DNA from: Novosphingobium sp. G106
GTDB lineage: Bacteria; Pseudomonadota; Alphaproteobacteria; Sphingomonadales; Sphingomonadaceae
Length of the DNA stretch: 64,000 nucleotides
Assembly (NCBI RefSeq): GCF_019075875.1
Contig: NZ_JAHOOZ010000001.1
Coordinates: 1,116,001 to 1,180,000 of the forward strand
Reading direction: 5' to 3'
Shown: positions 34,560 through 41,887 of the stretch, piece after piece
Numbering within the stretch: position 1 is the stretch's first letter
How the letters are laid out: each line of letters begins with the position of its first letter
Position numbers and translations under genes: made by a program
Notes under the pieces: generated by a model
What the model was told of the DNA's origin: nothing
The model's database searches: none
What the model saw: only the letters and a program-made list of their open reading frames with translations

Positions 34560-35522
34560 TTAGGCGGCGGTTTGCAGCTTCTGCCAGGCAGCGGGCGGCA
34601 GGCCGAATTCGCGCTTGAAGGCCCGGTTGAACGCGGCTTCGGAGTTGAACCCCACCGAGTAGGCGACATTGGCCGCATGCTGGCGCTCCTGTCGCAGCAT
34701 GTCGGCGGCGATGTTCATCCGCCACTTGGCGCAATACTGCATCGGCGATTCGCCGAGCAGTGCGCGGAAGCGATCGCCGAGCACGGTCTTCGAGACGCCG
34801 GCTTCGCGCGCCAGCCCTTCGAGCGTCAGCGCCTCGGCATAGGACTTGTGGATCAGCGCGATCGTGCGGCCGACCGCGGGGTCCTTGAGCCCGGCGAGCC
34901 AGCCGGCCTGCTCGGGCGGCAAGGCATCGATGTAGCGCCGCACTGCCTCGGCAAAGAGGCCCTCGGCCAGCTTGCCGACCGTCTCGGGCGAATCCTTGCT
35001 GAGGCCGTGGACGGCGAAGTCGATTGAGCGCCGGATCCAGTCGCTTTCCTTGGCGTCATCCAGGCCGACGACCATGATTGCCGGCAGGTTGTGGAGCAGC
35101 ATGTTCTCGGGCGTCGTGCTCGCCAGGAACCCGCAATAGACGCTGGTTTTCTCGCCGGTCCCTTCGAGCCTGACGCGGTAGAGGCCATCCTCGTCGAGCG
35201 AGTCCACCACCTGGCTGCCGTCCACCGGCTCGGACCGCTCGGGGCCATGGAGCAGGTGCGGCAGGTTGCGTGGCAGGAGGACGATCTGGCCGGCGCGAAC
35301 CATTACGGTCTCATCGTCGCCCTGCACCTGACACTCGAGCCAGCCCTCGCGGACATAGTGATAGGCGATGATGTGCGATGTCGGCGGTGCCGACAGGAAA
35401 TAACGCGCGGCTTCCTCGGGCGTCACCTGCGAGATGATCGACCACGGCCCCGCCATCTCGCCGTCGAGGAACACCCCGCCGGCCAGGCGCATCGACGATA
35501 GCAGGTCTGAAAGCGTGTCCAC
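34560..35522 (-). CDS. AraC family transcriptional regulator with cupin N-terminus
   Basis: A 320-aa regulator. Residues 1-190 form an AraC-type cupin sensing domain (Cupin_6-like: AGGVFLDGEMAGPWSI, AYHYVREGWLECQV, IVLLPRNLPHLLHG). The last 100 residues have the double helix-turn-helix (ALTLEGLAREAGVSKTVLGD and NVAYSVGFNSEAAFNRAFK). The GTG at 35522 is chosen because AGGGGA lies 8 bases upstream and the homologous domain begins there. It is divergent from the diiron gene at 35745 across 222 bp, which suggests it controls that operon. Confidence 0.85.
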   Translation of the reverse strand: MDTLSDLLSSMRLAGGVFLDGEMAGPWSIISQVTPEEAARYFLSAPPTSHIIAYHYVREGWLECQVQGDDETVMVRAGQIVLLPRNLPHLLHGPERSEPVDGSQVVDSLDEDGLYRVRLEGTGEKTSVYCGFLASTTPENMLLHNLPAIMVVGLDDAKESDWIRRSIDFAVHGLSKDSPETVGKLAEGLFAEAVRRYIDALPPEQAGWLAGLKDPAVGRTIALIHKSYAEALTLEGLAREAGVSKTVLGDRFRALLGESPMQYCAKWRMNIAADMLRQERQHAANVAYSVGFNSEAAFNRAFKREFGLPPAAWQKLQTAA

Positions 35523-35744
35523 CCAATTATCCCCTGGCCCAATCCCCTTGGGCAAAAAGCCGTTCGCTCGATCAAGTCTTCCGTCAGTTCGATCATATCC
35601 GCCGCCGACGGCGACAGGTAGTTCCGCGGGCAACAGCCGGCCGCGACTTGTCTGATTAAGTCAACGCCGGGCCGCACTTCGCAGACCGAAACCAAATTCT
35701 AGCGAGGGAACTGTCCAGCGGCAAGCAGAAGAGGAGGATCTGAG

Positions 35745-36653
35745 ATGTATCATGACTTCAGTTATCCGGCCGTGCTGTCGGCCGGTACCCGTGCCAACTG
35801 GCAGATCGAGGATGTGCTCCCGGAAGGAGCCCAGCTCGACTTCACGAAATCTTTTATGCCTGAGGCACTTGTCCGCATTGCGGGCCTGCCCGGGCTCAGC
35901 CCGAGCGAGCGGCTGACGCTCAATCATATCCGCGGGCACGAGTACCTCGCGATCTTCGGGCTGGTTGAAGAGTTCATCCTCCCCTTCGTGCTCGATCACG
36001 TCCGCGACGATCTCGCCGGGGACGAGCGCAGCCGCGCGCTGCTGCAGTTCGCCTCGGAGGAAGCCAAGCATATCCAGCTGTTCAGGCGCTTCCAGCAGAC
36101 CTTCGAAGCCGGCTTCGGCACGCCCTGTGCGGTGATCGGCCCGGCCGAGGCGATCCGTGCCGAAGTGCTGCGGCATCATCCGCTCAGCGTGGCGCTGCTC
36201 GTGCTCCACCTCGAGTGGATGACGCAGGGGCACTACCTGGGCAGCGTCCGCGACGATGCCGGGATCGACCCGCTTTTCGCCAGCCTGCTCAAGCATCACT
36301 GGATCGAGGAAGCGCAGCACGCCAAGCTCGATACGCTGATGGTCGAAGCGCTGGCGGCGGACTTGACGACCGCCGAGGTCGATGCCGCGGTCGACGGCTA
36401 CCTCGAGATCGGCGGCTTCTTCGACGCCGGCTTCAAGGCGCAGGTCGAGCTCAACCTGGCATCGTTCGAGCGGGCCATCGGTCGCACGCTCGACACCGAG
36501 ACCCAGAGCGCTTTCCTCGAAGGCCAGCATCAGGCGCTGCGCTGGACCTACCTCGGCTGCGGCATGACGCACCCGAACTTCGCCGCGAGCCTCGACTGTA
36601 TCTCGCCCAATGCGAAGGCGAAAGTGGACGCAGTTGCCCCTGCATTTTGTTGA
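35745..36653 (+). CDS. Ferritin-like/AurF-type diiron protein
   Basis: A 302-aa helical protein with paired metal-binding motifs EEAKH (residues 105-109) and EEAQH (188-192). Further helix acidic residues lie at HEYLAIFGLVEE (65-76) and HLEWM (155-159). This is the pattern of four-helix-bundle diiron enzymes such as AurF-type N-oxygenases. The exact reaction is not readable. A strong ribosome site (AGGAGGA) precedes the ATG. It is followed 28 bp later by an OsmC gene and is divergent from an AraC regulator, so the pair probably responds to a small-molecule or peroxide signal. Confidence 0.68.
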   Translation: MYHDFSYPAVLSAGTRANWQIEDVLPEGAQLDFTKSFMPEALVRIAGLPGLSPSERLTLNHIRGHEYLAIFGLVEEFILPFVLDHVRDDLAGDERSRALLQFASEEAKHIQLFRRFQQTFEAGFGTPCAVIGPAEAIRAEVLRHHPLSVALLVLHLEWMTQGHYLGSVRDDAGIDPLFASLLKHHWIEEAQHAKLDTLMVEALAADLTTAEVDAAVDGYLEIGGFFDAGFKAQVELNLASFERAIGRTLDTETQSAFLEGQHQALRWTYLGCGMTHPNFAASLDCISPNAKAKVDAVAPAFC

Positions 36654-36681
36654 ACGATGAACTGAGAAAAGGAGACGTGAA

Positions 36682-37245
36682 ATGACCGACGTGATGACCC
36701 GCAACGTAGTGAACGGCCTCGATCTCGAGGCGCTGAACGGCGTCGTCGGCGAGATCCAGCAGGATGCCTCGAAGGCGCTCGTCCGGTTCTCCGTGGCGAC
36801 GCGCTGGACCGGCCAGACCGGCAGCAAGACCACGGTGAAGGGCTACGAGATTGCCGGCGAGCAGGTCGCCCGCGAATTCGAGATCGAGGCGGACGAGCCG
36901 CACGAACTGCTCGGCACCAACCAGGCGCCCAATCCGCAGGAATTGCTGATGGCGGCGGTCAACGCCTGCATGACCGTGGGCTATGTCGCCGGCGCTTCGC
37001 TGCGCGGGATCACGTTGAGCAGGCTCGAGATCGACACCACCGGCCAGCTCGACCTGCGCGGCTTCCTCGGCCTCGATGACGGCGTGCCTCCCGGCTACGA
37101 GCAGATCGACTACACCGTGCGGATCGCCGGCGACGGCACGCCGGAGCAGTTCGACGAGATCCACGCCGCGGTGATGAAGACGTCGCCCAACTACTTCAAC
37201 ATCGCGCGGCCGATCCGCATGAACGGCAAGCTGCAGGTCTCCTGA
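36682..37245 (+). CDS. OsmC family protein
   Basis: A 187-aa protein of the OsmC/Ohr fold, members of which reduce organic hydroperoxides with a Cys pair. The peroxidatic-type Cys is at 96 in MAAVNACMTVGYVAG, preceded by the family NPQELL motif. At the place of the second Cys there is Ser168-Pro169 (KTSPNYFN), so this is a single-Cys member and the usual two-Cys peroxidase chemistry is doubtful. It is the second gene of the diiron operon and ends at a strong terminator. Confidence 0.82.
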   Translation: MTDVMTRNVVNGLDLEALNGVVGEIQQDASKALVRFSVATRWTGQTGSKTTVKGYEIAGEQVAREFEIEADEPHELLGTNQAPNPQELLMAAVNACMTVGYVAGASLRGITLSRLEIDTTGQLDLRGFLGLDDGVPPGYEQIDYTVRIAGDGTPEQFDEIHAAVMKTSPNYFNIARPIRMNGKLQVS

Positions 37246-37310: not shown

Positions 37311-39449
37311 TCAGTACTTGGCGCGGACGCTCGCGAAGAAGCTGCGGCCCTGCTCGGGGAAGCCGTCGGTCAGGACGTAGTACTTGTCGAACAGGTTGCG
37401 GCCGCCGACGCCGATCGTCAGGTAGTCGTTGATGTCGTAATCGGCGCGCAGGCCGGCGGTGACGTAGCCGCCCGTCTGGTAATAGAACGGGTTGTTGGCA
37501 TTGGCCGTGACCGGCGTGACGGTGGTGCGGCCCGAGGCGAATTCGAGGTTCGGCGTCACCTTCAATCCGCCGAGCGGCTGCCATGAGAGATAGGCGAAGC
37601 CCTTGTGGCTGGGGACGTCGGTCAGCTTGAAGTTCCGGATCGTGCCGATGGCGGGGGTTCCGACATCGAAGGTGCGGTGGATATAGCTGTAGTTGACCCC
37701 AGCCTGGAACGCCTGGGTAAGCTGAACCGAAAGCGATATCTCGCCGCCGTAATAGTCGGCGCTGCCGATGTTCTGACGTTGGTTGAGCGGCGTGGTCACG
37801 CCCGGGATCAGCAGCGGCGCATCGGTCCTGATGACCGAGACCAGCGCATCGGTGAGGTGGCTGTAGAACAGCGCACCTTCGAGCCGGATCGGCCCGAACG
37901 AATGGCTGCCGCCGACTTCGAAGTTCGTCGCCCGTTCGGGCTTCAGGTTCGGGTTGGGCAGGGCCGTGCCGAACTGGCTGGAGAACCGCTCGAACAGCGT
38001 GGGGAAGCGGATGCGTGACGAGACGCTGGCGTGCAGTGCGGTGGCGCCCTGTACCCATTCGAGCCGTCCCTGTGCGTTCCAGCCGCTGGCATTGCGCAGC
38101 GGGAAGCTGAACAGGCGGTTTGCGCCGGTCTGGCCGAGCGGCACGCCGAATTCCTCGGCGCGGTCGGTGTCGCGCCAGTCGTAGCTCGCACCCACGGTCA
38201 TGCTCAGGGCCGGGGTGAAGGCGAAGCGGTTCTCGATCGCGGCGCTCCAGGTGCGTTCTTCGCTGGTCTGGACCGGCTCGAAAGTGGGCGTGGTGAAGCC
38301 GGGGCGGCTCGTCTGGCTCTCGGTGTGCTCGTCGTGGCGATAGTGGAAGGCGACGCTCAGCGTGTCGCGCTCGGCCAGCTTCACCGCCAGTTCGGCCGAA
38401 CCGCCATAGGCGGTATCGTCGTAAGGGCTGTTGAACGCGCGGGGCAGCGCTTGGCTGTTCTGCAGCCGGTTGTCCCACGAGCTCAGCAGGTTCTTGTACT
38501 TGTTCCAGTAGGCGCGCGTCTTGACCGTGGCCGTGTCGCTGAGCGCCGTGGTCGAGAGGAAATAGACCCCCTCGATGTTCCAATAGGGCCAGGACCAGTT
38601 GTGCAGCGAAGCGTTGCTGGTGTCGGTGATGTGCAGCGGCGCGTTCTTCGAGCCTTCCTGCTTGGTATAGCTGATCGCATATTCGTCGGTGGCATTGGGC
38701 GTGAAGCCGGCCTTGACGTTGACTCGCCAGTCCTCGGTACGGCTGAAATCGCGCTCGCCGCCGTTCTCGTTGACCGTCGGCTTGAAGCTGCCCGGCAGGT
38801 CCCAGTGATCCTGGAAGTTGCGCGCGTAGGAGGCCTGGGCGTACCACTGGTCGTGCTTGGTGCCGAGCAGGGCGAAGACGTTGTAGCCCGTGTACTCGGC
38901 ATCGCGGCCGAGATTGAGCGTGCCGCGGACTTCGGCTTCGATTTCCTTGGTCGGCTTGCGCGTGACGAGGTTCACCGCGCCGCCCATCGCGCCCGGCCCG
39001 TCGAGCACCGAGGCATAGCCCTTGGCGACCTGCAACTCGGCGATGTCGGGCGTCAGGAAGCGGCCGAAGTCGAGCCGGTTGTCGGCGGGCAGGTAGATGC
39101 GGATGCCGTCGATCGACAGCGGCACCTGGAACCGGTCGAAGCCGCGCACGAACAGCAGCCGCTCGTTGCGCGATCCGCCGCTGTTGCCCGCGGTGACGCC
39201 GGGGATGAGGTTCGCCGCATCGTCGAGCGTGTTGCGGTTGAAGGTGTAGATCGCATCGGCCTTTAGCGTCTCGCCGCCGATCTGCAGCCCCTCGGGCGGT
39301 CGCGCGGTGACGACGATCTGGCCGAGCGTGAAAGTGCCGTCGGTGCTGGCGCCGGTGTCCTCGGCAGGCTGCGCTTCGTCGCTCTGGGCATAGGCGGGCG
39401 CGGCCAGGACAAGTGCGAGCGTCGCGGCAAGGCATGTGATATGGCGCAT
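37311..39449 (-). CDS. TonB-dependent outer-membrane receptor (candidate molybdenum/metal receptor)
   Basis: A 712-aa receptor. The signal peptide ends near AYA-QS (residue 22), a TonB-box-like GQIVVTA follows, and a plug domain with LLFVRGFDRFQVPLSIDGIR and GPGAMGGAVNLVTRKP lies at about residues 60-170. The 22-strand barrel ends with aromatic Tyr (SVRAKY). The ligand is not readable from sequence. A ModE-box-like operator 44 bases upstream and the neighbouring Mop and DUF2478 genes point to molybdate, tungstate or a metal complex. The divergent MbnH-type enzyme instead suggests a copper link. Both are inference. Confidence 0.85.
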   Translation of the reverse strand: MRHITCLAATLALVLAAPAYAQSDEAQPAEDTGASTDGTFTLGQIVVTARPPEGLQIGGETLKADAIYTFNRNTLDDAANLIPGVTAGNSGGSRNERLLFVRGFDRFQVPLSIDGIRIYLPADNRLDFGRFLTPDIAELQVAKGYASVLDGPGAMGGAVNLVTRKPTKEIEAEVRGTLNLGRDAEYTGYNVFALLGTKHDQWYAQASYARNFQDHWDLPGSFKPTVNENGGERDFSRTEDWRVNVKAGFTPNATDEYAISYTKQEGSKNAPLHITDTSNASLHNWSWPYWNIEGVYFLSTTALSDTATVKTRAYWNKYKNLLSSWDNRLQNSQALPRAFNSPYDDTAYGGSAELAVKLAERDTLSVAFHYRHDEHTESQTSRPGFTTPTFEPVQTSEERTWSAAIENRFAFTPALSMTVGASYDWRDTDRAEEFGVPLGQTGANRLFSFPLRNASGWNAQGRLEWVQGATALHASVSSRIRFPTLFERFSSQFGTALPNPNLKPERATNFEVGGSHSFGPIRLEGALFYSHLTDALVSVIRTDAPLLIPGVTTPLNQRQNIGSADYYGGEISLSVQLTQAFQAGVNYSYIHRTFDVGTPAIGTIRNFKLTDVPSHKGFAYLSWQPLGGLKVTPNLEFASGRTTVTPVTANANNPFYYQTGGYVTAGLRADYDINDYLTIGVGGRNLFDKYYVLTDGFPEQGRSFFASVRAKY

Positions 39450-39492
39450 GAGAATTGGCCCCTGGAAATTCTGTTGTCGTTGCGGGGGCGAG

Positions 39493-39514
39493 CCTATATT
39501 TGCCGGTATATAGG
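39493..39514. promoter_or_regulatory. ModE-box-like palindrome between TonB receptor and secreted protein genes
   Basis: CCTATAT-N8-ATATAGG is a perfect inverted repeat. Read with the ModE consensus it gives TATAT-N7-TATAT, matching the TATAT-N7-TAYAT pattern of molybdate-responsive ModE operators such as E. coli modA (established knowledge). It lies 44 bases before the receptor start and 20 before the secreted-protein start, where it could repress both. No ModE gene is in the window. A related 8-base palindrome CTATATAG (41322-41329) lies upstream of the DUF2478 gene. Confidence 0.55.
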
Positions 39515-39533
39515 TATGCAAGGGTTGATCATC

Positions 39534-40070
39534 GTGCGCGCATTTCTCTCCCCGACTGTGGCTTTGCTGTTGCCGTTCCTGCTCGGTTCCGCGGCTTTCG
39601 CGGAGGAGCCGGCCATGGCGCCGGCCGCTACCTGTACCGCACCGGTTGCGCCGACTGGCGAACTCGCGCCGTGGTCGAGCCCTTCCGCGCTCAATGCCGC
39701 GGGCGATGCCGCCGGTCTTCGCGCGGCGAACCTGCCGGTGGCGCAGGCGGCGCGGGTGACGCTGCTGTCGACGCCCGAGGTCAAGTACCCGCTGCGGCCC
39801 GAGAAGCCCGGCGGATCGGTCAGCTACGGCGGGCTCGTCGGCGTCGAAATCGCCCAGGCCGGCACTTACCGCGTGGCGCTGAGCTCGGGCGCCTGGATCG
39901 ACCTCGTCAAGCAGGGCAAGGCCGCTACTTCTGTGGCGCACGGGCACGGCCCCGACTGTACCGGCGTGCGCAAGATGGTCGACTTCGCGCTTACCCCGGG
40001 GCGCTACACGCTCCAGCTCGGTGCCAACGGCGATGCGCAGATCACGGTGCTCGTCGCGCGCCTGCCCTGA
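39534..40070 (+). CDS. Small secreted protein paired with MbnH-type di-heme enzyme
   Basis: A 178-aa exported protein: signal peptide about residues 1-23 (cleavage after AFA), then a beta-rich domain. It has two Cys (one near the mature N-terminus, one in HGHGPDC) and two Trp. I do not recognise a family; it lacks the four-Cys pattern of MbnP. It lies 3 bp before the di-heme gene and so occupies the partner position that MbnP has next to MbnH. It could be the enzyme's substrate. GTG 39534 is preferred (AAGGG upstream, good signal peptide); ATG 39516 would touch the operator. Confidence 0.6.
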   Translation: MRAFLSPTVALLLPFLLGSAAFAEEPAMAPAATCTAPVAPTGELAPWSSPSALNAAGDAAGLRAANLPVAQAARVTLLSTPEVKYPLRPEKPGGSVSYGGLVGVEIAQAGTYRVALSSGAWIDLVKQGKAATSVAHGHGPDCTGVRKMVDFALTPGRYTLQLGANGDAQITVLVARLP

Positions 40071-40073
40071 CCC

Positions 40074-41054
40074 GTGCGGCTATTCCGGACTGCAGCGCTG
40101 CTTGCCGCGATCGGCGTGACCGCGGCCGCGGCGGGGGCGCCGCGATGGAAGTGGAACGTCCCAGCGGGAGTAGCCGCGCCGGCAGTGCCCGCGGACAACG
40201 CCATGTCCACCGCCAAGGTCGAGCTCGGCCGGCGGCTGTTCTACGATGCCGACCTCTCCGCCGACGGCACGATGTCTTGCGCGACCTGTCACGAGCAGCA
40301 TCGCGCATTCGCCGACGGCAATGCCAGCCACCCGGGCGTGACCGGTGAGCCCGGCCGGCGCAACGTACCGGGGCTGGCGAATGTCGCCTGGTTCAGCCGG
40401 CTGACTTTCGCCGATCCGGGGCTGACCTCGCTCGAGGGGCAGGTCGGCGTGCCGGTGCTCGGCATCCATCCGGTCGAGATGGGCATGGCCGGCCGCGAGG
40501 CCGAGATCGCCGCGCGGCTGTCGCGCGACCCCTGTTATCGGACGATGTTCGCCAGGGCTTTCCCCGAGTTCGGCGGGCGCATCGATTTCGGCAGCACGGC
40601 CAAGGCCATAGCCAGCTTCGAGCGCACGCTCGTGTCGTTCGGCAGTCCCTATGATCACGGCGCGATGTCGGTCCAGGCGACGGCGGGGCAGGCAGTCTTT
40701 GCGCGTTCCTGCGCCGGATGTCATGCCGGAGCCAACTTCACCGATCAGGACTATCATCGGATCGATCGCGCCGATCCTCCGGCCTTCGATCCTGGACTCA
40801 GCGAAAAGACCGGCCAGAAGGCCGATCTCGGCAGGTTTCGCACACCGTCGCTGCGCAATGTCGCGCTCGGCGCGCCCTATTGGCACGACGGCAGCGAGCG
40901 GACGCTGGCCGGTGCGATCGGGCGGCATCGGTTGACGCTGACCACCGACGAGAGCGCCGAACTGGTCGCGTTCCTCGAAGAGCTGACCGATAGCGAGTTC
41001 GTCAGCCGTAAGTCGCTGTCGTTGCCTGCGACGGCCTGCGGACGGAGGCTGTGA
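40074..41054 (+). CDS. Di-heme cytochrome c peroxidase family, MbnH/MauG-like
   Basis: A 326-aa exported c-type cytochrome: signal peptide about residues 1-21, heme site 1 CATCH (69-73) and heme site 2 CAGCH (213-217). The stretch from PADNAMSTAKVELGRRLFYD through the HPVEMG motif (132-137) to SFERTLVSF resembles MbnH, the methanobactin-associated MauG relative of the metallo-mystery-pair type. That enzyme modifies a Trp of its partner protein MbnP. Classical peroxidases are less similar. GTG start 3 bp after the secreted-protein gene, so the two form an operon. Confidence 0.8.
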   Translation: MRLFRTAALLAAIGVTAAAAGAPRWKWNVPAGVAAPAVPADNAMSTAKVELGRRLFYDADLSADGTMSCATCHEQHRAFADGNASHPGVTGEPGRRNVPGLANVAWFSRLTFADPGLTSLEGQVGVPVLGIHPVEMGMAGREAEIAARLSRDPCYRTMFARAFPEFGGRIDFGSTAKAIASFERTLVSFGSPYDHGAMSVQATAGQAVFARSCAGCHAGANFTDQDYHRIDRADPPAFDPGLSEKTGQKADLGRFRTPSLRNVALGAPYWHDGSERTLAGAIGRHRLTLTTDESAELVAFLEELTDSEFVSRKSLSLPATACGRRL

Positions 41055-41059
41055 TGGCG

Positions 41060-41266
41060 TTATTTGCCGATCAGCACGTCGCTCGCCTTGATCAGCACGG
41101 TCACCCGGTCGCCGACGACGAGGCCGAGATCGGCCACGGCTTCCTCGGTGATGCTCGAAGTGATGACGTTGCCGCCGCCGATGTCGACCTTGATCTGGCC
41201 GTTGACCGCACCCGGGGTGATCGCGGTGATCGTGCCGGAAATTTGGTTGCGCGCGCTGATCTTCAT
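41060..41266 (-). CDS. Molybdenum-pterin-binding protein (single Mop/TOBE domain)
   Basis: A 68-aa molbindin with the typical start MKISARNQISGTITAI and the motif GGGNVITSSITEEAV, then VGDRVTVLIKASDVLIG. Such proteins form hexamers that bind molybdate or tungstate in the cytoplasm and act as a store or sensor. It is convergent with the di-heme gene (5 bp between stops) and divergent from the DUF2478 gene across 78 bp. It links this island to molybdenum or tungsten handling. Confidence 0.93.
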   Translation of the reverse strand: MKISARNQISGTITAITPGAVNGQIKVDIGGGNVITSSITEEAVADLGLVVGDRVTVLIKASDVLIGK

Positions 41267-41344
41267 GGCTGGCTCCTTATCGAGATTTGGGGCTGTGGGA
41301 ATTTCGGTGGGCGGTTTTGCGCTATATAGAATACGAGGTTTTCA

Positions 41345-41887
41345 ATGGAACGGCAGTCCAAACCGATCGCGATCGTCCAGGGGGCGAGCAGCGCCGAGAT
41401 CCAGCGTTTGCTGGCGGTCTTCGTCGATCGCCATGCGCCGCGTCTGCGGATCGCCGGGCTGATCGAAGGCGCGGCGGGCGAGGGCGCTGCCTGCGGTGCC
41501 GGCCAGCTTCGCAGCATCGGCAGCGGCGGCAGCTTCGCACTGTTCCAGGAACTGGGACCAGGCTCGGAATCCTGTTCGCTCGATAGTTCGGGCGTGGTCC
41601 AGGCGAGCGAGCAGGTCTGCAACGACATCGCCCGCGGCTGCGACCTCGTCGTCCTGAGCAAGTTCGGCAAGCTTGAGGCGGAGAACCGCTCCGGGCTGAT
41701 TTCGGCCTTCGTTGCGGCGATGGAGGCGGGGCTGCCGATCCTGACTTCGGTCTCGCCCAAGCATATGGCGGCTTGGTCGGCCTTCGCCGCGCCATTCTTC
41801 GTCACCTTGCCGCCTGAGATGGCCGCGCTTGAAAGCTGGCAGGCCAGCGCCGGCGACTATTCGAGTTGTCATGCGGAAGCCCCATAA
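41345..41887 (+). CDS. DUF2478 family protein (molybdenum-locus associated)
   Basis: A 180-aa cytoplasmic protein. The patterns PIAIVQGASSAEIQRLL, RIAGLIEG, DLVVLSKFGKLEAENRSGL and GLPILTSVSPKH fit DUF2478. That family is often found beside molybdate ABC-transporter genes and shares a P-loop-NTPase-like fold, though no classical Walker A is present here. Role unknown. CTATATAG lies 16 bases before the ATG and may be half of a ModE-type site. It is divergent from the Mop gene. Confidence 0.82.
   Translation: MERQSKPIAIVQGASSAEIQRLLAVFVDRHAPRLRIAGLIEGAAGEGAACGAGQLRSIGSGGSFALFQELGPGSESCSLDSSGVVQASEQVCNDIARGCDLVVLSKFGKLEAENRSGLISAFVAAMEAGLPILTSVSPKHMAAWSAFAAPFFVTLPPEMAALESWQASAGDYSSCHAEAP

Follow-up and report, generated by a model that had tools for sequence, protein, structure and literature searches.

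A conserved TonB receptor, secreted protein and di-heme enzyme module with a ModE-type operator, probably for molybdenum acquisition, in Novosphingobium and its relatives

A probably molybdenum-regulated module in Novosphingobium sp. G106

Analysis of a 64,000-nucleotide stretch of the Novosphingobium sp. G106 genome (the window; C1:1116001-1180000, contig NZ_JAHOOZ010000001.1, within 7.23 Mb) revealed a conserved module in which a TonB-dependent receptor gene and a divergent gene for a small secreted protein (SEC), followed by a di-heme enzyme gene, flank a perfect ModE-type palindrome. Since this box keeps its position across loci and also stands at modABC, the module almost certainly belongs to the molybdenum regulon, an assignment about as firm as sequence allows. 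Taken as a whole, it is probably a ModE-controlled molybdenum-acquisition module. Detailed annotation covered 33-47 kb of the window. Open reading frames and profile matches there bore out the five-gene description given by a first-pass annotation (receptor, secreted protein, di-heme enzyme, Mop and DUF2478), as did direct reading the palindrome between the receptor and SEC genes that it had matched to the ModE consensus. The features are:

37311..39449, minus strand: TonB-dependent receptor of the putative molybdenum module; Pfam plug and barrel above cut-off
39493..39514, no strand: ModE-type palindrome CCTATAT-N8-ATATAGG (core 39494-39513), flanked by the divergent receptor and SEC genes
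39516..40070, plus strand: SEC, with a signal peptide recognized by eye and two Cys that are nearly invariant; homologs found; start codon ATG 39516 or GTG 39534 (plus strand)
39807..39821, plus strand: SEC segment PGGSV, residues 98-102, which tracks the presence of the di-heme enzyme
40074..41054, plus strand: di-heme MauG/MbnH-like enzyme; CCP_MauG 154 bits, two CxxCH
40926..40928, plus strand: codon of di-heme enzyme His285, invariant in module enzymes and aligned to a Tyr of 6e1c
41060..41266, minus strand: Mop (molbindin); TIGR00638 75.6 bits against a cut-off of 55
41322..41329, no strand: half-site-like CTATATAG, not a full palindrome, in the Mop/DUF2478 intergenic region, by direct reading
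41345..41887, plus strand: DUF2478 protein, an accessory member; PF10649 133.6 bits against a cut-off of 22.3

The ModE-type box recurs at module and mod genes

The arms and spacing of the window palindrome agree with the E. coli ModE consensus, ATCGNTATATA-N6-TATATANCGAT (PMC545781; this and the other papers named here are cited from excerpts), and the element is shared with mod genes; a comparable consensus is given in PMC2700814. The looser first-pass pattern, TATATN7TAYAT, matched once in the window versus never in 100 shuffles. Genome-wide, its 5 matches stood against 4 for the reversed control, a difference without significance, and we rejected it as genome-wide evidence. The stricter CTATATN8ATATAG, allowing at most one mismatch, yielded 8 genomic sites and none in the control. 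One is a one-mismatch box upstream of modA-modB-modC; another, likewise with one mismatch, precedes a different TonB receptor gene (genome G000, C1:5950044-5950063, L084); and a second exact palindrome, CCTATATCTCGATATATATAGG, stands at the start of an aldehyde-dehydrogenase-like gene (C1:5880439-5880458, L078).

Across 199 genomes of the home family, the exact box occurred at 40 sites in 34 genomes, whereas the control gave one site in each of 3. Thirty of the 40 sites were opened for neighbor reading and 10 were not; modA, modE, SEC or the module receptor adjoined the box in 24 of these 30 loci, and none of the four was present in the other six (L171, L176, L189, L190, L198, L199). Relatives carry exact boxes at their modA/modE promoters.

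The 400 bp upstream of SEC were scored for their best box in two sets that overlap in genomes and contigs (for example L099/L058 and L107/L057): 80 named loci, which are the best 80 of 249 relatives and some of which end at contig edges, and 41 family SEC loci, made up of the window and 40 loci fetched at 20 kb (6 of 47 SEC places were not: G034, G042, G081, G090, G117, G139). Boxes with 0, 1, 2, 3 and 4-6 mismatches numbered 39, 24, 5, 2 and 10 in the named set (at most one mismatch in 63/80) and 14, 6, 3, 1 and 17 in the family set (20/41); 4-6 mismatches, being about shuffle level, were counted as no box. In a tree of the 41 SECs, box absence took 8 label changes against a shuffle mean of 13.3, and linkage to the di-heme enzyme 3 against 9.9. 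Both labels partly follow ancestry, in a tree with many weak forks. Tandem ModE-type boxes about 24-27 bp apart were observed upstream of the receptor in L209, L211, L213 and L246.

Regulator, Mop and DUF2478

The genome's only ModE-type match (TIGR00637; C1:6042073-6042327, E 4e-20, 74.2 bits against a cut-off of 98.5) is a helix-turn-helix-only (HTH-only) protein of 126 residues. It lies outside the window, as does modABC at about C1:3318070-3320180, in keeping with the earlier statement that the window holds neither; for modABC this is limited by the annotated range and by the genome not having been searched for further modA copies. No TIGR00638 match was found in the genome other than the window Mop, which means that ModC and ModE both lack a recognizable one. 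Mop adjoins an HTH-only ModE-type gene in L065, L140, L147 and L234, and we infer a split ModE, whose DNA-binding part and molbindin would be encoded as separate genes.

Close receptor orthologs (E ≤ 1e-140, five candidates scored per genome) were present in 20 of the 199 family genomes, SEC in 43 and a strong ModE-type match in 67, "strong" denoting a best E < 1e-15, a threshold set after seeing the gap. All 20 receptor genomes held both SEC and a strong match (Fisher values, which ignore shared ancestry, 7e-16 for receptor/SEC and 4e-11 for receptor/ModE-type), with at most one box mismatch in 17 and 2, 2 and 3 in the rest. A strong match was likewise found in all 24 genomes with a boxed SEC (at most three mismatches), versus 4 of the 13 with unboxed SECs only; the genome sets for these counts were compiled by hand. 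The co-occurrence test set at first pass therefore came out mixed, holding for receptor, SEC and ModE-type gene (20/20) but not for the boxless SECs or for 9/13 genomes with only unboxed copies.

Mop and DUF2478, which the first-pass annotation counted among the five genes of the island, each occurred in 2/80 named loci (within 8 kb on either side). DUF2478 was found in 3/199 family genomes, and accompanies the module also in L094, L101 and plasmid pCMU01. We dropped both from the core and treat them as accessory.

Gene runs with molybdate genes

Among the 80 named loci, a ModE-type gene was present in 29, mostly directly behind the di-heme or SEC gene, and ModA in 4. Novosphingobium album (L161) has a one-strand run of SEC, di-heme enzyme, ModE, ModA, ModB and ModC, with ModA above the molybdate equivalog cut-off and ModE below its own; modA, modB, modC and modE also lie within the SEC locus in L113, L136 and L142. 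Genome G571, from a different family of the same class, encodes SEC-ModA-ModB-ModC in a row, all three Mod proteins exceeding the molybdate equivalog cut-offs, and a second SEC after a Mop-like gene (58% identity); no box of at most two mismatches was found at its SEC loci.

The module is also found on plasmids. In Methylorubrum extorquens CM4, the conjugative plasmid pCMU01 (L233) has an exact box followed by receptor, SEC and di-heme genes interspersed with insertion sequences; a DUF2478 gene about 2 kb beyond the module is itself preceded, at about 180 bp, by a two-mismatch box. Plasmid p1 of Sphingomonas sp. NY01 carries a one-mismatch box, a 155-residue fragment of the module receptor, SEC and the di-heme enzyme, clustered with a TonB receptor of another kind, ModE and a TOBE protein; L147 shows the same gene order with a full module receptor. 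In L071, modABC runs together with SEC and a porin-like gene (by eye), and Mop lies nearby, possibly a case of a porin in place of the receptor.

Clustering the neighbors of 84 loci produced 22 clusters of at least four loci; six clusters were checked by profile, the others by blast identity or by eye. They comprised the module genes, modE, modA, modB, modC and a second TonB receptor type (5 loci), together with shadow ORFs, a short-chain dehydrogenase, a LysR regulator, YitT, a GGDEF-like protein and an unassigned protein of about 810 residues. None of the 22 looked copper-related.

SEC, a small, probably secreted protein without a Pfam match

SEC had no Pfam match at E 0.1 and a single sub-threshold NCBIfam match, to Ohr; neither search matched it to MbnP, and SEC profiles matched no PDB chain at E 10 or 5. 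Beta strands dominate its confident AlphaFold model, which has a mean pLDDT of 89.2. The family is marked by an HGHGPxC-GxRK motif, two Trp and a pair of Cys: Cys40, Trp53, Trp127, His142, His144, Cys148 and Lys153 are conserved in at least 99% of enzyme-linked SECs and in 91-98% of the others, so both Trp are present also where the enzyme is missing. Residues of the copper-kynurenine type are limited to the conserved Trp53, Trp127, His142 and His144. Outside the home family SEC is patchy, with 7/385 genomes in a class-wide draw (G571 included). Relatives of about 170 residues are labeled homogentisate 1,2-dioxygenase in 2/4 plasmid records (NZ_CP101723.1, NZ_CP032828.1), most likely a misnomer.

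The di-heme enzyme and its pairing with SEC

The enzyme's translation contains two c-type heme motifs, CATCH and CAGCH. Against TIGR04039 (MbnH) it scored 278.5 bits, under the 362.85 cut-off, its best stretch ending at profile position 272/336. Its nearest solved relative by sequence is 6e1c, which we take to be MbnH of Methylosinus; the Tyr of 6e1c that aligns with the module His is presumably a heme ligand. His285 is invariant in all 61 sequences holding the region (64 aligned) and aligns where the axial Tyr of the six-coordinate heme would be expected in MbnH/MauG. The alignment to the Tyr of DIYSEGG in 6e1c was made via a Caulobacteraceae member, L132, in which Tyr directly follows His; the register may be off by one, yet 60/61 sequences lack an adjacent Tyr. 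In MauG Y294H and BthA Y463H the near-infrared bis-Fe(IV) feature is reported to be lost, and BthA Y463H to retain peroxide reduction (PMC6405878). Together with the invariant His, these effects make a peroxidase-like activity more likely for the module enzyme than that of a classic MauG-type oxidant. By score and by residue, the enzyme is MbnH-like rather than MbnH proper.

The di-heme gene lies directly downstream of SEC in 63/80 named loci. Moreover, 68/69 enzyme-linked SECs, versus 3/43 others, contain the segment P[GS]G[ST][VM], a motif picked after data inspection; the Fisher value for SEC/enzyme co-variation ignores shared ancestry. L151 and L155 bear the segment without linkage, and each genome encodes a module-type enzyme elsewhere; in that of L155, the separate enzyme faces a receptor across a box with no SEC detected between them (L225). 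The sole enzyme-linked SEC lacking the segment, L165, adjoins an enzyme fragment with a stop, and L156, with a PGGST variant scored as absent, also has a module-type enzyme elsewhere. Three SECs with altered segments have no adjacent enzyme (L099/L058, L101, L114): no module-type enzyme was found in the genomes of L099/L058 and L101, whereas a di-heme gene of 48% identity is present in the L114 genome. L124 is a true exception, keeping the segment in a genome where no module-type enzyme was found. Because the segment tracks the enzyme, SEC is quite likely its direct partner. Of the proposal that the secreted protein is a new MbnH-type substrate, the partnership is supported by co-variation, but the identity of the enzyme as MbnH is not supported.

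The TonB receptor

The receptor matched PF07715 with 54.2 bits (cut-off 23.9) and PF00593 with 112.5 (cut-off 27), placing it among TonB-dependent receptors; matches to solved receptors were weak (best E 6e-10). Its closest counterpart among the named loci, themselves the best 80 of 249, is that of Novosphingobium sp. JCM 18896 (L094, 79%). A homolog lies within 3 kb upstream of SEC in 68/80 named loci (5 on the same strand; 4 short: L120, L149, L163, L165), and receptor copies apart from SEC are still boxed (L202, L208, L209, L211, L216). Six nearly invariant Arg in the plug (94, 102, 106, 117, 125, 130; at least 95% of 49 sequences) form a stretch that would fit an anionic ligand, a point that is suggestive only. 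ModE-type regulation, receptor type and gene runs together point to import of a molybdenum species by this receptor, which we consider a good probability.

The second-type receptor (about 800 residues) stands between the di-heme gene and modE-mop in L147 (9413-11824) and L234 (6395-8797), and its cluster also includes L109, L136 and L155. In L234 the module's own receptor is a fragment only, possibly the trace of a receptor swap. SEC and the di-heme gene also occur in Nitrobacter, at loci L091, L093, L096 and L098; three of these (L091, L093 and L098) have an upstream receptor (41-43%) in matching orientation, preceded by two-mismatch boxes. Nitrite oxidation depends on molybdenum.

Beside the island, AraC regulator, AurF-like and OsmC genes (window 34560-37245) show no sign of membership. 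A scan of 39380-39620 for sigma-70 promoters and terminators gave no match.

Proposed mechanism and points against it

We propose, with an even chance of being right, an outer-membrane TonB route for a molybdenum-ligand complex, in which SEC, as a new family of periplasmic proteins, would accept the cargo and a His-for-Tyr di-heme peroxidase, presumed to co-evolve with one face of SEC, would activate SEC or free the metal for ModABC. Under molybdenum scarcity, the HTH-only ModE would leave the box, with molybdate perhaps sensed by Mop as a subunit of its own, and the genes would be expressed. The receptor would then draw a molybdenum species whose bulk or dilution is beyond porins, most likely molybdate in an organic complex, into the periplasm, where SEC would receive or process it and feed it to ModABC. 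The di-heme enzyme, present in most of the lineages seen though not in all and probably an MbnH relative of the peroxidase type, would act on SEC through the PGGSV face (maturation); alternatively, enzyme and SEC might act together on the ligand (release). DUF2478 and Mop would be intracellular accessories. The exact chemistry is put forward tentatively, and any one version of it is doubtful.

Several observations weigh against this scheme. Seventeen of the 41 family SEC loci are boxless, and the neighbors of the 8/17 read by eye vary by locus (MutL-like, RuvA-like, PEP-carboxylase-like, RND-like) and show no molybdenum theme, so the basic function of SEC may be wider than molybdenum. Near SEC, the Nitrobacter loci L093, L096 and L098 show no box within one mismatch, and 17/80 named loci lack the enzyme beside it. 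The ModE-type proteins are HTH-only, and 198/199 genomes contain no match above the TIGR00637 cut-off, which leaves their response to molybdate less than certain. In profile searches the receptor resembles heme and siderophore receptors in a generic way; a second TonB receptor of unrelated type occurs in 5/84 loci; and neither a ligand nor a gene for making one was seen. Free molybdate is usually assumed to pass porins, which leaves the need for a receptor unproven.

Alternative explanations

The strongest competitor, though an unlikely one, is a molybdenum-regulated module that moves other cargo during molybdenum shortage, such as a pterin or an iron xenosiderophore. Iron chelates are the usual cargo of TonB receptors, and both the heme/siderophore profile matches and the further receptor in 5/84 loci would suit such a role; against it, SEC lies in runs with modABC or a Mop gene even where receptor or box is absent, and the mod genes are the recurrent neighbors of clear function.

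Far less probable is a copper system of the MbnP/MbnH or CorA/CorB type, in which the di-heme enzyme would build a kynurenine copper site in the secreted protein. The gene logic is alike, as MbnP/MbnH pairs occur near MbnT-like receptors (PMC3621798), and CorA holds Cu(I) by two His and a kynurenine (PMC3912023), residues that the conserved Trp and His of SEC recall. Against it, the module comes with a ModE box and with mod genes, no MbnP model matches SEC, the aligned Tyr is missing from the enzyme and none of the 22 recurrent clusters is copper-like. We consequently rejected copper as the leading explanation; of the outer-membrane molybdenum uptake island first proposed, the ModE-type box, the molybdenum link and the conserved receptor/secreted-protein/di-heme module stand, and the copper role has no support.

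Service to tungstate instead of molybdate is, if anything, more improbable still: ModE and Mop proteins can bind tungstate too, but ModA, ModB and ModC of L244 and ModA of L161 reach the molybdate equivalog cut-offs and fall far under the tungstate ones. That the palindrome belongs to another regulator or to chance, with a coincidental molybdenum link, is hardly credible, for although the looser pattern is no commoner than its control, box position is conserved across many genera, the same element stands at modA/modE promoters and co-occurrence with ModE-type genes is strict.

Relation to known systems and significance

The module resembles the MbnP/MbnH pairs with MbnT-type receptors (PMC3621798) in that genes for a secreted protein and a di-heme enzyme of the MauG superfamily, with 6e1c as its nearest solved structure, adjoin that of a TonB receptor; it differs in that SEC is not MbnP by profile, the enzyme falls under the MbnH cut-off with His for Tyr, and a ModE box and molybdenum genes take the place of copper ones. 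CorA/CorB and MopE/SACCP of methanotrophs (PMC3912023) likewise pair a metal-repressed secreted protein with a di-heme cytochrome, but there the metal is copper, and SEC profiles match no PDB chain by sequence at E 10 or 5. With ModE-controlled ModABC uptake (PMC545781) the module shares operator type, regulator family and, in some genomes, common gene runs, and SEC and the outer-membrane receptor are its additions. Import through TonB-dependent receptors has a parallel in complexes of Fe, Zn, Co or Ni, although molybdenum is absent from the metals named in the excerpt of PMC4965479. The nearest outer-membrane precedent in the literature searched is the T6SS-secreted ModA of P. aeruginosa with the outer-membrane protein IcmP (PMC11734730), also a proposed outer-membrane molybdate step, which uses different machinery as described in that excerpt. 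Among the matches listed in searches of open-access literature, none described a TonB receptor regulated by molybdenum or the SEC/receptor/di-heme set.

Molybdenum passage across the outer membrane is usually considered passive, and known ModABC uptake begins in the periplasm; to our knowledge, a receptor for chelated molybdenum is a long-standing gap in the metallophore field. If our reading is true, such a receptor would become directly testable in culturable bacteria, and a function would be indicated for a protein family that bears a homogentisate 1,2-dioxygenase label in 2/4 plasmid records. In its di-heme enzyme, the module would further provide a naturally occurring Tyr-to-His variant from the MauG/MbnH superfamily, for which a protein partner is proposed. 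A gate, a secreted protein and a heme enzyme, common to many soil and water bacteria and under the type of switch that controls molybdate transporters, suggest an undescribed outer-membrane route for molybdenum.

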